A DNA stretch of 64,000 bases, from assembly GCF_001563225.1 (NCBI RefSeq), contig NZ_CP014206.1, positions 1,798,001 to 1,862,000 of the forward strand, given 5' to 3'. Both the position numbers and the translations under genes were made by a program. Numbering within the stretch: the first letter of the stretch is position 1; every line of letters starts with the position of its first letter. Origin of the DNA: Pseudodesulfovibrio indicus. Its GTDB lineage: Bacteria > Desulfobacterota > Desulfovibrionia > Desulfovibrionales > Desulfovibrionaceae. The notes below the pieces were generated by a model. The model saw nothing but the letters and a program-made list of their open reading frames with translations. It was not told the origin of the DNA and made no database searches. Positions 31,953-38,387 of the stretch are shown here, piece by piece.

Positions 31953-32762
31953 ATGTCTTGGAAAGTTGTCCTCAAACCGGGAATCCGAGGCCGTCTGCTC
32001 GCCTCTCTCTGTCTCGCCCTGGTCCTGATGCTCGGCCTGCCCCTTGCGGCAGACGCGGGTTCCGGCCTGCCCCTGCGCGTGGCCTATCCCGACTACTGGC
32101 CGTTCTTCTCCCGAAACGAAGACGGCATCATGCAGGGATTCTTTTACGACATCGTGTCCGAGGCGCTGAACCGCATGGGCATCGGCTCGGAGTGGCGCGA
32201 CTATCCGTGGAGCCGCTGTCAGGCCCTGGTCCAGTCGGGCGAGGCCGACGCCATGGTCACCGTGCCCACGGCAGAGCGCCTAGTCTACACCGCCACCCAC
32301 GCGGACCCGTTCTACCTGAAGAAACTCAAGGTGTTCACCTACGCGGGCAATCCCAGGCTGGACGAGATCAGGCGGATCAAGTCCATCGACGACATCTTCG
32401 ACCTGGGGCTGACCGTGGTCACCTACCACGGCAACGGATGGAACGATAAGTACATCCGCTCGCGGGGCATCAAGACCTACGAATCCCCCCGGATCAAGAA
32501 CATCTGGCTGATGCTGGCCAACCAGCGCGGGGACATCGCCATCGAATGGCCCATGGCGGCCTGGCCGCTCATCGACGAGGGCGGCGTGTCCAAGGCCATA
32601 GTCGAGACCGACGTCTCCCTGGAGGCCATGCCCTTCCACCTCCTCGTCTCCCGCCGCTCCCCCTACGCCGCCCGCATGGACGAGTTCAACGAGTTCATCA
32701 AAAAGATGCAGGCCGAGGGCCGCATCGACCGGATCATCTCCAAGTACGTGGTTAAGCAGTAG
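31953..32762 (+). CDS. Periplasmic solute-binding protein (SBP_bac_3/PBPb type)
   Basis: 269 residues with a Sec signal (LLASLCLALVLMLGLPLAADA). The mature part starts LPLRVAYPDYWPFFSRNEDG and has GFFYDIVSEALNRMG and AMVTVPTAERL, the usual amino-acid-binding PBPb layout, ending IDRIISKYVVKQ. No ABC permease or ATPase genes adjoin, so it may be an orphan receptor or sensor subunit. The ligand is unknown. No obvious ribosome site precedes the ATG. Confidence 0.8.
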   Translation: MSWKVVLKPGIRGRLLASLCLALVLMLGLPLAADAGSGLPLRVAYPDYWPFFSRNEDGIMQGFFYDIVSEALNRMGIGSEWRDYPWSRCQALVQSGEADAMVTVPTAERLVYTATHADPFYLKKLKVFTYAGNPRLDEIRRIKSIDDIFDLGLTVVTYHGNGWNDKYIRSRGIKTYESPRIKNIWLMLANQRGDIAIEWPMAAWPLIDEGGVSKAIVETDVSLEAMPFHLLVSRRSPYAARMDEFNEFIKKMQAEGRIDRIISKYVVKQ

Positions 32763-32862
32763 TTGATTTCTCGGCTTTTCTCACCCCAAGCGTTAGTCGA
32801 ACGCTTCCGATTCGTTCCGCTTCATTTCCATTGAGGATCGGAAGAGCCGCTCCTCATTTCCG

Positions 32863-34830
32863 TCAGCTTCTAGACTCGTGGAGTGGGGGCTGGTTTGGGT
32901 TCAAGATTTTTTTAAGCCTGCTATTTTTATTTATGATATTGAGGAATATTTTGTTGCGAGCTTCTGCGTCGGCAATCAATGTTTTTACGCACACAACGTA
33001 GATGGAAGAATTGCCAAAAGAGCGGTAATAGATCGGCCTGTCGGTTGAGAATAGTTCAGCATAGCCGTCTCTTGTGAGTCTGTTAGCTAGGTCCTCGTCT
33101 ATTTCCGTTATGAGGAAAGCCCAAATCTCTTGAATTTGCTCAGCTTCTTTAAAAGCTTCAATGTTGTCTAACAGTTGTTGTAGGCCAGCAAATTTTTGGC
33201 GACCTGGTTTGTTTTTATAGTCAAAGGGTTTAATCTCGACGACAGCCGCTTTTAATGCCGATTTATTGTTAGGGTTATGTGAGAAGAAAAGAGCTATATC
33301 GGGTCTGTCTAAGTCGTACTTTGTATTTGTCTTTTCATCAAATTTACTCAAAATTTTATGTATTCTTTTGTCACTTGCTGCGTAACTGTAACTAATGAAC
33401 CTGTCGTCTAACAGCCATAGGTTGTTTTTTCCGATCGAGTACTCAGCGTCGTCTGTGTATCTTTCCATAAACAGGTTATGGATTATCTTTTCGTTTTTTT
33501 CTTTCTTGTTGAACATTGCTTTTAATCTCTCAATCACCATTGTGCGATCGTGGATGTATGCAACAAGTTCATTTTGCGCAATTTGTATTGCTTCTTGTAG
33601 GTCTTCTTCGGAGTACTCCTTTTTGCCAGAGTGTCGTATTAGTTTGTCTTTTGCGGATTCAAAACGTTTTTTAGCTTTTTTAATTATGCTGTCCTTATTT
33701 ATGAATCCAAGAACGTTGATGTCATCTTCATCGATATATTCTAGTAAATACGGTCGCTCATTCTCTATCTCGGCAAGTTTGGCTTTGTTGGTCGAGTCTG
33801 AGTTTGGAATTTCTTGTTTTATTATTGTTGATAAGCAGTTGCGCAATTCAGAATTGATGTCATCCCAAGAAAGTTTCTGATATAAATCTGTTGTCTTCGG
33901 ATGGATTTTAAAATCGTTTCTTTCATTGTCGACATATTCGTCGAAGTAATTAGAGGATAGTAATAAAAATGCAGAGTACTTGTTCGGTAGCGATAATTTG
34001 AAATCTTTATCGTGAAATTCACATACGGTACGCATATTTGCGCAGTAATAGGCATTTGTACCTACGCATTCTGTATTTATGTCGTAGTATAGAGTGAATT
34101 CAAAATCTTCATTTTGATTGGATTTAACTAGAAAGCTGCGCTTATTGAAGTTCGGGATGTCGTCGACGGTAATACTTACTGTATCATTGGTTTGCGTATC
34201 AACTATGTCAATATTTATTTCTCTGCCAATGTCCTTATAAAAGAAGAGTGTTGGGGTAAGATTTAGTAAAATACTATCTTTTATAGCGTCAATATTTAGT
34301 ATGATTCTTCTATCAATACGCTTTTTGGGATCGTGATAATTCCTTTTTAGCGTTGTAAGCTCTAAAATAGTTTTACTTTCATCAACGTTTATCGTTTTGG
34401 ATTTTATGTCTTCACTTTCAAAATTAACAGTAAAAACAAATTTTTTGTGTTTGTTTTCACTTTTAACGAAGCTTTCAAACTTAGCTTCCTTGTAAACCTT
34501 TAAGAAAGCTAATCTCCCAACCCCTTTACAGCCAAATTTATTCTGCTTAAAATCGGTTCTATATATACCAAAAGATTGGTAGTTCTCTGTAGTGAAACCA
34601 TCTCCATTATCAGTCACCTTTATTGTGTCAACTTTCCGTTCGGGGTTGAATTCCTCATCTGTGGAATTTGTTAATAATGGCAGTTCTAAGCAAGTTAGAT
34701 GACAAGTTATTACTGTCGCATTAGCGTGTATGGCGTTGGTTATCCCTTCTAGTATGACATCAAGTTGATTAGTCCGATTGCTGATGTCCTCATTGATGAC
34801 TCTCTGAAGGTTGGTAAGCATATGTGCCAT
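32863..34830 (-). CDS. GHKL/MORC-like ATPase fused to a PD-(D/E)XK nuclease domain; candidate defence gene
   Basis: 655 residues, AT-rich with A/T-ending codons, unlike every neighbour. N-terminal Bergerat ATPase: E28-N32-N37 in LEGITNAIHANAT, D74-G76-G78 in VTDNGDGF, and the lid GCKGVGRLAF (100-109). A long middle region (about 200-480) is Lys/Asp/Asn-rich. The C-terminus holds P510-D511 and E532-I-K534 (RPDIALFF...VVEIKP), a PD-(D/E)XK nuclease signature, followed by a Gln-containing helix. GHKL-nuclease pairings are known from prokaryotic conflict systems; I do not recognise a named system. A short polA-tail frame precedes it by nine bases. Probably acquired horizontally. Confidence 0.8.
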   Translation of the reverse strand: MAHMLTNLQRVINEDISNRTNQLDVILEGITNAIHANATVITCHLTCLELPLLTNSTDEEFNPERKVDTIKVTDNGDGFTTENYQSFGIYRTDFKQNKFGCKGVGRLAFLKVYKEAKFESFVKSENKHKKFVFTVNFESEDIKSKTINVDESKTILELTTLKRNYHDPKKRIDRRIILNIDAIKDSILLNLTPTLFFYKDIGREINIDIVDTQTNDTVSITVDDIPNFNKRSFLVKSNQNEDFEFTLYYDINTECVGTNAYYCANMRTVCEFHDKDFKLSLPNKYSAFLLLSSNYFDEYVDNERNDFKIHPKTTDLYQKLSWDDINSELRNCLSTIIKQEIPNSDSTNKAKLAEIENERPYLLEYIDEDDINVLGFINKDSIIKKAKKRFESAKDKLIRHSGKKEYSEEDLQEAIQIAQNELVAYIHDRTMVIERLKAMFNKKEKNEKIIHNLFMERYTDDAEYSIGKNNLWLLDDRFISYSYAASDKRIHKILSKFDEKTNTKYDLDRPDIALFFSHNPNNKSALKAAVVEIKPFDYKNKPGRQKFAGLQQLLDNIEAFKEAEQIQEIWAFLITEIDEDLANRLTRDGYAELFSTDRPIYYRSFGNSSIYVVCVKTLIADAEARNKIFLNIINKNSRLKKILNPNQPPLHESRS

Positions 34831-34839
34831 GATTGGTCC

Positions 34840-34911
34840 TTATTGATGCGTTTCAGCCCAGTTCTTGCCTAATTCCAAATCAACTTTGATCGCGACGGAC
34901 GGCTTTTTCAT
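34840..34911 (-). pseudogene. Diverged duplicate of the polA 3' end (23-codon frame)
   Basis: The minus strand encodes KVDLELGKNWAETH near its end. The C-terminus of the intact DNA polymerase I here is KVDLGLGKNWAEAH. The copy uses AT-ending codons (about 43% GC) like the nuclease gene and not like the resident polA. It opens with its own ATG (34911) and its TAA is followed by GGACC before the nuclease ATG, so it might also serve as a translated leader. Best read as a recombination or integration scar. Confidence 0.75.
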
Positions 34912-34947
34912 GACTCACATGATAGCAGTAAAACACCTGCCCTGCGA

Positions 34948-35649
34948 CTAAATCCCCTTACGCCGGAAGAGGATGTCCCAGCCGGGGGTGAGTTCGGCGT
35001 GGACCTCGTAGAGGTCCTGGAGGTGGTTGATGATCGCGTCCTTGTCGTGCATCTCGACCAGGATGAAGTCAGGGCGGTATTTGTCCAGGTCCAGGCCCTT
35101 GAGCACTTCCAGTTCGTAGCCCTCGACGTCCAAGGAGAAGAGGTCGATGTGTTCCGGGGCCACCTCGTCGAGGATGGAGGTCAGGGTTCTGGTTCTGACC
35201 TCGATCTCGTAAGGGTCGGCGATGTTCTCGCGGGCCGCGCCGCGTTCGATCCACGCGTCCTCCACGTCCTTGGCCTTGTTGCCCTTGACGATGGACATAA
35301 GCCCGGCATAGCGCATGGTGATGTGGTCTTCCTTGAAGTCGCTGCTCACCAAGGCGCAGTTGAAGACCTGGGAATTCATCCGCAGATACTTGCACTTGTT
35401 GTACAGCTCGGGGATCGGCTCGACCAGCACGCCCTTCCAGTCCATGCAGTACTCGAGGTAGAACGTGTTGCTCTGCACGTACCCGTTGTTGGCGCCGCAT
35501 TCGATGAAAAAGCCGTTCCTGTGCTTGATGTGATTGAGCAGCCGCCTGTCGAGGCCGTTCAGGCCGGGGAACGGGTTCGCCTCCACAAGGGCCTTGATGG
35601 TCATCAGCCTGTCCAGGTGCTTCTTTCTGCTCTCAAGTGTCTTCATCAT
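34948..35649 (-). CDS. FkbM-family methyltransferase
   Basis: 233 residues. The SAM-binding start is GFFIECGANNGYVQSNTFYLE, with EPIPELYNKC after it and the family's IDLFSLDVEGYELEVLKGL near the C-terminus. FkbM enzymes O-methylate sugars or small molecules. GC content is native-like. The gene lies between the intact polA and the polA-tail copy, so it may itself have entered at this site. Confidence 0.88.
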   Translation of the reverse strand: MMKTLESRKKHLDRLMTIKALVEANPFPGLNGLDRRLLNHIKHRNGFFIECGANNGYVQSNTFYLEYCMDWKGVLVEPIPELYNKCKYLRMNSQVFNCALVSSDFKEDHITMRYAGLMSIVKGNKAKDVEDAWIERGAARENIADPYEIEVRTRTLTSILDEVAPEHIDLFSLDVEGYELEVLKGLDLDKYRPDFILVEMHDKDAIINHLQDLYEVHAELTPGWDILFRRKGI

Positions 35650-35720
35650 TCCTCCGGAACGGTGTCGATCATGCCCGGTCGTTCAACGTGTGGGAAATCC
35701 GTGGCGGCCTAGCCGGGCGA

Positions 35721-38387
35721 TCAGTGCGCCTCGGCCCAATTCTTCCCTAATCCCAGGTCCACCTTGAGCGGCACGTCGAGTTTGGCCACGTCCTGCATGA
35801 TCTCCTTGAGCCGTGCGCCCGCCAGCTCAATGGCGTCCGCAGGGGCTTCCACGATCAGTTCATCGTGCACCTGGAGAATGAGCCGGGCTTCGAGGGACTT
35901 GAGCTCGCGGTCCTTGTGGGCCGCCACCATGGCCATCTTGATGATGTCCGCGGCGGACCCCTGGATGACCGTGTTCACGGCCTGGCGGCGGGCCTGGGCC
36001 GAGAGCTGGTTGTTGCGCGAGTGCAGCTCCGGGAGCAGTCGGCGGCGTCCGGCCAGGGTGGTCACGAAGCCGTGGGTCTCGGCGTCCTTGACGATGGTGT
36101 CGTAGTACGCCTTGAGCGTGGCCATCTTTTCGAAGTAGCGGTCCGTGAACTCCTGGGCCTCGGTCTGCTTGATGTGCAGCTCGCGGGCCAGCTTCTGGAC
36201 GCCCATGCCGTAAATCAGGCCGAAGTTGATGGTCTTGGCCCCGCGCCGCTCGTCCGAGGTGACCTTGTCCAGGGTCTTGTCGTGGATCAGGGCCGCGGTG
36301 CGCGCGTGGATGTCCTCGTCGTGGCGGAAGGCGTCGATGAGCGCCGGGTCCTTGGAGAAATGGGCCAGCACGCGCAGCTCGATCTGCGAATAGTCGGCGG
36401 CGGCCAGCCGGTTGCCGGGAGCCGCGTTGAAGCAGGCGCGCATGCGCGGGCCGTGCACCCCGCGAATGGGGATGTTCTGGAGGTTCGGCTGGGAGCTGGA
36501 GAGCCGCCCCGTGGCCGTGGAGAGCTGGTTGAAATGGGTGTGCAGCCGCCCGTCGTCGCCGACCATCTTGGGCATGGGCTCCAGGTAGGTGGAGCGCAGC
36601 TTCTCCAGCATGCGGAACTCCAGGACCGCGTCCACGATGGGATGCTGGTCGCGGATCTTTTCCAGCACCTGGTTGGCCGTGGAGCGCAGCCCGGTGGAGG
36701 TCTTGGACCCGGCCTTGATGCCCAGGTCGTCGAACAGGACCACGGCGAGCTGCTGGCTGGAGCGGATGTTGAACTCAGCGCCCGCGAACCCGATGATGCT
36801 CCGGGTCAGCTCGTCCAATTGACCGGAGACGTCGTCGAGAAACGCCTGGAAGGCATCGGGATCAATGGAGATGCCCGCCCGCTCCATGGACACCAGCACC
36901 GGGATGAGCGGCAGCTCCAGATCGCGCATGAGCCGGGTCAGGTCCGCGCCCTCCACCTGGCCCCGAACGGACTTCATGTAGGCCAGGGCGGCCAGTCCCT
37001 GGGACTGGGGGTGCAGGTCGCGGGCCGCGTCCGCGAATTCCGGGCGGCCGTCCTGGAACATGGACTGCCTGAGCCGCGCCCAGGTGTAGTTGCGCGCCTC
37101 GGGGTCCAGGAGATAGGCGGCCAGGCTCAGGTCGAACCACTGGCGGGACAGGATGTAGTCCCACCCCTGGTCGTCGCGCATAAGATCCTGCACGCTGGGC
37201 GTGGCGATGATCGAGGCGTGCTCCAGGGCCGGGATCAGCTCGGCGGCGGGGCCGGAGAAGCGGTACTCCCCGCCGTTCACGCCGATGAAGAAGCCGTTGT
37301 CCTCGAAGGTCAACCCCACGTCCTCGCCGCCCAGCGCGGGCAGCTCGGACACGGATTTGACCACCGTGACCTCAAGGGGGGCCTCGGTCTTCCGGCTTTC
37401 CGGCTCGGCGAACAGCGAGAGCTGCATGCCGGACCCGGCGGACGGCTTGGCCGATGCGGAGGCCCGGGTGTCGGCGGCTTTGGGGGACTCGGGGGAAACG
37501 ACCGGCGTGCCCTCGGGCAGCAGCCGCTGCAACCCGCGCAGCTCGTATTCCTCGAAAAATTCGTTCAGGGCGTCGAAGTCCGGCTGCCGGACCTGGAATT
37601 CGTCCACCGGCAGGTCGCAGCAGTCGGTCTTCATGCGCGTCAGCTCGCGGTAGACGAAGACGTTGTCCAGCTCCGGCTCGACCTTCTCGCGCAGCTTGTC
37701 CGGCAGCTTGTCCATGTTGTCGCGCAGCTCCTCCAGGGTGGGGCCGGTGGCCGCGAATATCTTGCGCGCCGTGACCGGGCCGATCTTGGGGATGCCGGGG
37801 ATGTTGTCCGCCGAGTCGCCGATGACCGCCTGGAAATCGGGCCAGGTGGCGGGCTCCATGCCCTCGGCCTCGCGGAAGGAATCCAGGGTGTGGATGGTCT
37901 CGTTGCGGCCGTGCTGGCTGACCATGACCACCCGGTCGTCCAGGCACTGCTTGATGTCCTTGTCCGAGGCCAGGATGATCACCGGGCGCTCGCGCTTGTA
38001 GCGGCCCGCCAGGGCGCAGATGCAGTCGTCCGCCTCCACACCGTCGGAGACCAGCAGCTTGACGCCGAGCAGCTGCACCCCGCGCCGCACCGGCTCCACC
38101 TGTTCGGCCAGCGGCTCGGGCATGGCCGGGCGGTTGGCCTTGTACAGGTCGTACTTCTCGTTGCGGAAGGTCGGTCCCTTGCCGTCCATGAGGAACGCCA
38201 CGTGGCGCGGGTTCTCGTCCTTGAGCAGGTTCATGACCACGCGCATGACCGTGTTGATGGCGTTGGTCGGGAAGCCGTCCGACCGGGACAGGTCCGCGCG
38301 GGCGTAGAAGGCGCGGTAGAGCAGGGCGGTGCCGTCGATGAGATAGACGGGTTCCTCGGAGAAATTCAGACGTTCTTTCAGCGACAT
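35721..38387 (-). CDS. polA: DNA polymerase I
   Basis: 888 residues. The 5' nuclease (about 1-290) shows LIDGTALLYRAFYA, SDGVEADD, ASDKDIKQ and IGDSADNIPGIPKIGP. A Pro/Ser-rich linker (about 290-330) follows. The 3'-5' exonuclease-like domain reads DVGLTFEDNGFFIGV where the metal motif DTET is expected, so proofreading is probably lost. The polymerase has SQPNLQNIPIRG, AADYSQIELRVLAHF, RRGAKTINFGLIYGM and LQVHDELIVE. It ends GLGKNWAEAH. Repair and Okazaki-fragment processing. Confidence 0.96.
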   Translation of the reverse strand: MSLKERLNFSEEPVYLIDGTALLYRAFYARADLSRSDGFPTNAINTVMRVVMNLLKDENPRHVAFLMDGKGPTFRNEKYDLYKANRPAMPEPLAEQVEPVRRGVQLLGVKLLVSDGVEADDCICALAGRYKRERPVIILASDKDIKQCLDDRVVMVSQHGRNETIHTLDSFREAEGMEPATWPDFQAVIGDSADNIPGIPKIGPVTARKIFAATGPTLEELRDNMDKLPDKLREKVEPELDNVFVYRELTRMKTDCCDLPVDEFQVRQPDFDALNEFFEEYELRGLQRLLPEGTPVVSPESPKAADTRASASAKPSAGSGMQLSLFAEPESRKTEAPLEVTVVKSVSELPALGGEDVGLTFEDNGFFIGVNGGEYRFSGPAAELIPALEHASIIATPSVQDLMRDDQGWDYILSRQWFDLSLAAYLLDPEARNYTWARLRQSMFQDGRPEFADAARDLHPQSQGLAALAYMKSVRGQVEGADLTRLMRDLELPLIPVLVSMERAGISIDPDAFQAFLDDVSGQLDELTRSIIGFAGAEFNIRSSQQLAVVLFDDLGIKAGSKTSTGLRSTANQVLEKIRDQHPIVDAVLEFRMLEKLRSTYLEPMPKMVGDDGRLHTHFNQLSTATGRLSSSQPNLQNIPIRGVHGPRMRACFNAAPGNRLAAADYSQIELRVLAHFSKDPALIDAFRHDEDIHARTAALIHDKTLDKVTSDERRGAKTINFGLIYGMGVQKLARELHIKQTEAQEFTDRYFEKMATLKAYYDTIVKDAETHGFVTTLAGRRRLLPELHSRNNQLSAQARRQAVNTVIQGSAADIIKMAMVAAHKDRELKSLEARLILQVHDELIVEAPADAIELAGARLKEIMQDVAKLDVPLKVDLGLGKNWAEAH

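Follow-up and report, generated by a model that had tools for sequence, protein, structure and literature searches.

Introduction

Two published descriptions come closest to the protein considered here, the product of a 655-residue gene in a 64,000-nucleotide stretch of the Pseudodesulfovibrio indicus genome (contig NZ_CP014206.1, positions 1,798,001 to 1,862,000; hereafter 'the window'). The paraMORC3 proteins, as set out in the portions of Iyer, Abhiman and Aravind (2008; PMC2292703) drawn on here, combine a GHKL ATPase domain and an S5 domain with a restriction endonuclease (RE)-fold domain that carries an E-D-ExK set of residues. They are sporadic in distribution, and some are standalone genes in proteobacteria and Bacteroidetes. 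Many paraMORCs are proposed in that paper to be parts of restriction–modification (RM) systems, where they would loop DNA, and its section 5 raises the possibility of unlinked RM partners. The second description, taken from the corresponding portions of PMC12137116, concerns VcSduA of Vibrio cholerae, a single anti-phage protein with a GHKL N-terminus and a PD-(D/E)xK C-terminus. On its own VcSduA protects Escherichia coli against Drexlerviridae (strongly against some), and it protects its own host against phage X29. Activity is abolished by E27A and by K557A. Protection is similar across the multiplicities of infection (MOIs) tested, which the authors read as direct restriction, and they assign the protein to a proposed Shedu type I-D, tied to paraMORC3 (type I-D appears also in PMC12409362).

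The window protein is probably a relative of these in function as well as in form: we consider it likely to be an anti-phage (anti-invader) nuclease of the paraMORC3 type, encoded by a single gene that was acquired horizontally; in it, a GHKL–S5 clamp would work with a Shedu-like PD-(D/E)XK nuclease that cuts invading DNA. The observations behind this are the predicted fold, the conserved active sites, the rarity of the gene among relatives of the host and its position in a variable site where congeners carry defence candidates. Whole-length homology to GHKL-nucleases encoded in RM and Shedu operons also points this way.

Architecture and conserved residues

The gene and the parts of its product are as follows (all on the minus strand).

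32863..34830, minus: GHKL-nuclease gene, open reading frame (ORF) with ATG start, 655 amino acids (aa); GHKL ATPase, S5/transducer, helical linker and predicted PD-(D/E)XK nuclease in that order
34837..34841, minus: AAGGA, resembling a ribosome-binding site, 6 nt ahead of the ATG
34231..34830, minus: GHKL (Bergerat-fold) ATPase domain, about residues 1-200, from Pfam and model alignment
34735..34749, minus: Bergerat N-box E28..N32, invariant in 32 aligned and in 13 diverse sequences
34597..34611, minus: Bergerat D74-x-G-x-G78, conserved in both alignments
34513..34533, minus: ATP-lid motif G100-CKGVG-R106, from the 32-sequence alignment, with G103, G105 and R106 also in the 13-sequence one
33811..34230, minus: S5-like transducer domain, about residues 201-340 (approximate limits)
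33508..33810, minus: helical linker, about residues 341-441, helices in the predicted model
32923..33507, minus: predicted C-terminal Shedu-like PD-(D/E)XK nuclease domain, about residues 442-636
33490..33492, minus: E447, first acidic residue of the E-D-ExK set, invariant
33298..33303, minus: P510-D511, D511 invariant, P510 in 32/32 and 11/13 sequences
33229..33237, minus: E532-I-K534 (ExK), E and K invariant
33175..33180, minus: Q551-Q552, both invariant in 32, Q552 invariant in 13 and nearly so in a further alignment

An initial annotation, made from the letters and their translations alone, had read E28/N32, D74-G78 and GCKGVGRLAF (from G100) as Bergerat motifs, and P510-D511 with E532-x-K534 as a nuclease motif. 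All lie where it placed them, and most prove invariant when relatives are aligned. Across 32 sequences (query included), the positions without variation are E28, N32, D74, G76, G78, G100, K102, G103, G105 and R106 in the ATPase, and P510, D511, E532, K534, Q551 and Q552 toward the C-terminus. A more diverse alignment of 13 sequences, the query and 12 others that are 21-56% identical to it, retains E28, N32, D74, N75, G76, G78, G103, G105 and R106, and, C-terminally, E447, N470-L471-W472, D475, S486, D511, E532, K534, Q552, A622 and R625; G100, K102 and P510 vary among these. E447, D511, E532 and K534 are invariant in the further alignment too. Pfam assigns HATPase_c_3 to residues 24-151 (E=1.4e-7, over the cut-off) and, at E<=1, nothing to the C-terminal part.

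Composition sets the gene apart from its surroundings, as had also been claimed. Its GC content is 0.364; at third codon positions (GC3) the value is 0.384, against 0.89-0.95 in eight other window genes, and its mean codon score is -1.105 (lower than synonymous codons used evenly would give); the same eight score +0.40 to +0.65. The codon background was built from seven of those eight, leaving out the FkbM-type methyltransferase gene described below (score 0.404). With GC3 and codon score both unlike those of the eight other window genes, the GHKL-nuclease gene is, by its composition, of foreign origin and probably horizontally acquired. We rejected a phage-borne origin: one phage record matched over 65% of the query at 26.7% and one viral contig at 33%, and a single-sequence scan gave no match.

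Fold of the C-terminal domain

A predicted model of the protein aligns to Hsp90, MutL, GyrB and MORC over the GHKL part. Residues 430-655, modelled alone, gave a predicted local distance difference test score (pLDDT) of 81.6, and in VIA-align this model matches solved PD-(D/E)XK nucleases, with Shedu ranked first; this fold match and that of the GHKL part are comparisons with set lists of solved structures. The proposal of a GHKL ATPase fused to a PD-(D/E)XK nuclease thus stands, on Pfam HATPase_c_3, the conserved residues and the VIA-align match, and the structural resemblance on which the initial annotation had made that proposal depend was found. Profile comparison by hhalign of the nuclease domain with SduA returned probabilities of 47% and 63%, with a score of about 38 as against at most 22.4 in 100 shuffles, and a probability of 0.2 when the profile held close relatives only. 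A search of PDB sequences with the C-terminal alignment yielded three matches at E 0.84 or worse, which we took as chance. From the model, then, the C-terminal domain is predicted to be a nuclease domain of the Shedu fold.

Relatives and their neighbours

The protein search, over 5.8 billion, returned 500 matches at E<=0.001; the 7992 best-sharing candidates were scored and 120 listed. Apart from the protein itself, the 119 listed relatives are 49-56% identical across 96-100% of the query. Where descriptively named, they are called 'ATP-binding protein' or 'hypothetical protein'; most of the organisms given are Bacteroidota. Close to the host the gene is rare: it occurs in 2 of 36 genomes of the genus (its own, and one congener with a distant relative, 26% identical), and 2 of 395 genomes of the phylum, its own included, match at 1e-20. 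In the congener, a type I RM methylase gene precedes this relative by ~3.3 kb, and the surrounding stretch is AT-rich and includes a tyrosine recombinase.

Neighbours were surveyed at 15 of 18 loci (46-58% identity), three loci at 25-27% (L017-L019) having been dropped before counting. RM genes adjoin the GHKL gene at six of the 15: type IIG at L002, L005 and L015, and type III at L003, L004 and L014. These calls come from Pfam for L002 and L014 and from identity among neighbours for the other four, together with a PADLOC tally of 98 neighbour ORFs in which, among the 25 listed of 171 families, type IIG models match up to 4 and type III methylase or restriction models up to 3. L006 has a fragment resembling a type IIG gene and an N6_N4 methylase, L010 a TIR-domain gene, and L003 also putAbiC and an AAA_5 gene. 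At the remaining seven, unassigned loci (L007-L009, L011-L013 and L016), some of them short, mostly one or two neighbours each were scanned with Pfam; PDDEXK_1 adjoins L013, YobI-ATPase L007 and a transposase L012.

Distant relatives on plasmids were followed in 12 of 18 records, 11 of them annotated. Defence-type genes occur at seven of the 11, which include two pairs of similar loci: type I RM, Shedu, Abi, restriction-endonuclease or cyclic-oligonucleotide-based anti-phage signalling system (CBASS)-type genes. At the other four, defence genes are not clearly present. Neither survey places the homologues consistently in housekeeping contexts, the other outcome that the initial annotation had allowed for, and its picture of a single gene in a defence-type setting agrees with the RM and defence neighbours of relatives and with the variable site described next.

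Two side observations belong here. Two families of small proteins of 154-161 aa, without a Pfam match, directly adjoin the GHKL gene in 4 of the 15 close-relative loci (L002:9518-9991, L016:508-969, L004:10544-11005 and L015:11953-12435); by eye they have D...(E/Q)xK-like motifs, and they may be extra nucleases. On a Vibrio fluvialis plasmid (L063:6619-10013), type I RM genes are followed directly by a canonical Shedu gene and a GHKL-nuclease gene that share 4 bases; the two can therefore be carried together.

The SBP–polA junction

In the window, the GHKL-nuclease gene lies between two conserved flanks.

31953..32762, plus: family 3 solute-binding protein (SBP) gene, conserved flank, Pfam SBP_bac_3
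32763-35720: variable SBP–polA junction, seen also at L047-L052, L055, L058, L060, L061, L088 and L089
34948..35649, minus: FkbM-type methyltransferase gene, accessory, between the GHKL gene and polA, Pfam Methyltransf_21
35721..38387, minus: ORF of the conserved flank that we take, from its sequence, to be the DNA polymerase I gene (polA)

Of 35 genus genomes, 24, the window's own among them, have a match to the SBP gene at E<=1e-60, and proteins 77-83% identical to the polA product adjoin that gene in 10 congener regions. What lies between differs. The window's junction is 2958 bp long and contains the GHKL-nuclease and FkbM genes. In five genomes the junction is short, at 100-563 bp (L032, L042, L050, L052 and L058), and seven congener junctions, with gaps of 1500-3154 bp, contain AT-rich cargo of one or two genes; five further stretches (L053, L054, L056, L057 and L059) do not include polA. 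PADLOC phage-defence candidates match six of seven scanned cargo sites (PDC-M19A/B, M53A/B, M36A, M04A at E=3e-10, M30/M41 and S42), the site without a match being L061, and Pfam names among the cargo include DUF488, DUF3800 and DUF5131. Two more cargo sites, L088 and L089 (the latter with its SBP gene outside the contig stretch), were found through the boundary pattern described below, and the PADLOC count excludes both. The SBP–polA junction thus varies across the genus, and in congeners its cargo includes defence candidates.

The FkbM gene matched only its own genome among 35 of the genus at E<=1e-40, with a GC3 of 0.897. We considered it as a partner of the GHKL-nuclease and found this unsupported, its codon use being host-like. 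Two AT-rich cargo ORFs of this junction are candidates for unknown defence genes: L061:12724-13770 (349 aa), which neither Pfam nor PADLOC matches at E<=0.01, and L088:5648-6640 (331 aa).

The cargo has a recurrent edge on the SBP side.

32842..32873, plus: boundary sequence common to other occupied sites, which overlaps the GHKL gene and contains its stop codon

This boundary ends AAGAGCCGCTCC-N6-CCGTCAGCTTCTAG/A. Searched with up to 3 mismatches, the pattern occurs at 11 places in 10 of 36 genus genomes, and a reversed control pattern in none. Cargo status was assessed in 15 of the 36: the boundary is present in 10/10 genomes with AT-rich cargo adjoining polA and in 0/5 with a short junction (G007, G010, G011, G018 and G029). 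Eight of the ten were known beforehand, some being the source of the pattern (own, G002, G006, G013, G025, G028, G033 and G034); G022 and G035 were found by the pattern itself. The eleventh match (L090, in G013) is in DNA of host GC, with no AT-rich ORF of at least 100 aa and no cargo, and the left part of the boundary region is present in one short junction (L058). The boundary was also tried as a structured RNA or hairpin, and rejected on finding no Rfam match at gathering thresholds; its folding as single-stranded DNA did not exceed that of shuffles (z 0.13 to -0.91).

One might go further and suppose that the junction is a defence-cassette site of the genus, where AT-rich modules of one or two genes, with no recombinase of their own and the same boundary each time, are swapped by a trans-acting enzyme or through homologous recombination between conserved flanks, and that the GHKL nuclease is one such cassette. 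We offer this as a speculation and think it unlikely to be right as it stands; our estimate was lowered a little, since it was the boundary pattern that led to two of the ten cargo sites that carry it. If the speculation is true, new defence genes of the genus could be sought beside polA, and the conserved boundary would offer a handle on how such small modules move.

Proposed function and alternatives

GHKL proteins such as MutL, Hsp90 and topoisomerases undergo ATP-dependent dimer closure. Since this behaviour is established for them, we infer that the GHKL ATPase and S5 transducer of the window protein would form an ATP-dependent dimer that clamps around DNA. Closure would then position the Shedu-like nuclease, reached through the helical linker, and gate cleavage of invading DNA by a putative E447-D511-E532/K534-Q552 site. 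Direct restriction seems preferable to cell suicide solely by analogy with VcSduA.

Other readings share much of this evidence. The protein might serve, as a subunit or an accessory, an RM system whose genes lie elsewhere, and loop DNA between recognition and cleavage sites. The type IIG or III genes beside six of the 15 close relatives, the several distant relatives in or beside type I operons and the unlinked partners raised in PMC2292703 would all suit it. Yet no RM gene is among the two on each flank of the window copy (no search for such genes covered the rest of its genome), relatives differ in the type of RM system that adjoins them (I, IIG, III), and VcSduA protects E. coli alone (PMC12137116); we judge this reading improbable. 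Some defence nucleases act by abortive infection, and the putAbiC, TIR and CBASS-type genes near some relatives would fit an effector that, triggered by phage, degrades host DNA too and kills the cell. The similar protection by VcSduA at all tested MOIs, read as direct restriction in PMC12137116, speaks against such an effector, to which we give little credence. A MutL analogue with a housekeeping role in DNA or mismatch repair would share the GHKL fold, but presence in just 2 of 36 genus genomes, the foreign composition, the variable site with its defence candidates and the RM and defence neighbours of relatives make it very hard to credit.

A single-gene anti-phage nuclease remains our preferred reading, and several results count against it. 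At E<=1 the protein has no match in PADLOC, NCBIfam or PDB sequences, and PADLOC-DB 2.0.0 has no real match for the family (best E among 32 members 0.019). PF14082 (SduA_C/DUF4263) does not match the window protein at E<=10, is not among the 25 listed of 31 families for the 32 members and, at E<=1, matches none of nine distant relatives; as a positive control, the profile matched the Shedu gene L063:6619-7995 at E=1.3e-25. The nuclease model was built on 20 sequences, and with it Foldseek gave no match at E<=0.001, its top rows being unrelated folds. With a profile of close relatives only, the hhalign probability against Shedu falls to 0.2. The PADLOC background check on accessory genes consists of the FkbM gene alone (no match). 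RM genes are absent among the two genes on each side of the window copy, unlike at six of the 15 close-relative loci. Lastly, VcSduA was compared by its description, with a V. fluvialis relative, 22% identical to the window protein, as proxy in sequence.

These reservations aside, a large family, whose descriptive names among the listed matches are only 'ATP-binding protein' or 'hypothetical protein', is now tied to a tested defence architecture, and the conserved residues of the GHKL-nuclease are targets for mutation.

Comparison with known systems

The initial annotation knew of no named system with exactly this architecture; that statement did not hold up, as paraMORC3 (PMC2292703) and VcSduA (PMC12137116), in the descriptions cited, both share it, and for the same reason we rejected a categorically new architecture. 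Like paraMORC3, the window protein has an N-terminal GHKL domain with intact ATP motifs, then an S5 domain, and an additional C-terminal domain predicted to be of RE fold, in which E447-D511-E532xK534 fits E-D-ExK; its membership is set by the published description, not by the sequences of named members. In VcSduA, E27 and K557 would play the roles of E28 and K534. The V. fluvialis relative, with E27 and an ExK lysine at 556, aligns with the window protein over most of its length (E=2e-21); of that protein's 2532 relatives, the 120 listed include no sequence with its ExK lysine at 557. VcSduA sits in VSP-II, whereas the window copy adjoins polA.

Canonical Shedu (SduA; B. cereus 8ti8/8ti9, E. 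coli 8ps4/8ps5) differs in its N-terminal regions, in whose place the window protein has the GHKL–S5 module, and Pfam SduA_C does not match the window protein, so that we rejected filing it as Shedu by Pfam. With MutL, MORC and Hsp90 it has the GHKL plus transducer fold in common; the sequence match to MutL homologues reaches only E 0.0015, in the ATP site only, and the C-terminal model resembles a PD-(D/E)XK nuclease. Tiamat TmtA (PADLOC), a profile of 1655 positions, does not match the window protein and matches the distant relative L064 weakly, in the GHKL region (E=0.0027). The window protein is a further member of a known GHKL-nuclease architecture, and the variable site beside polA is its less expected feature.
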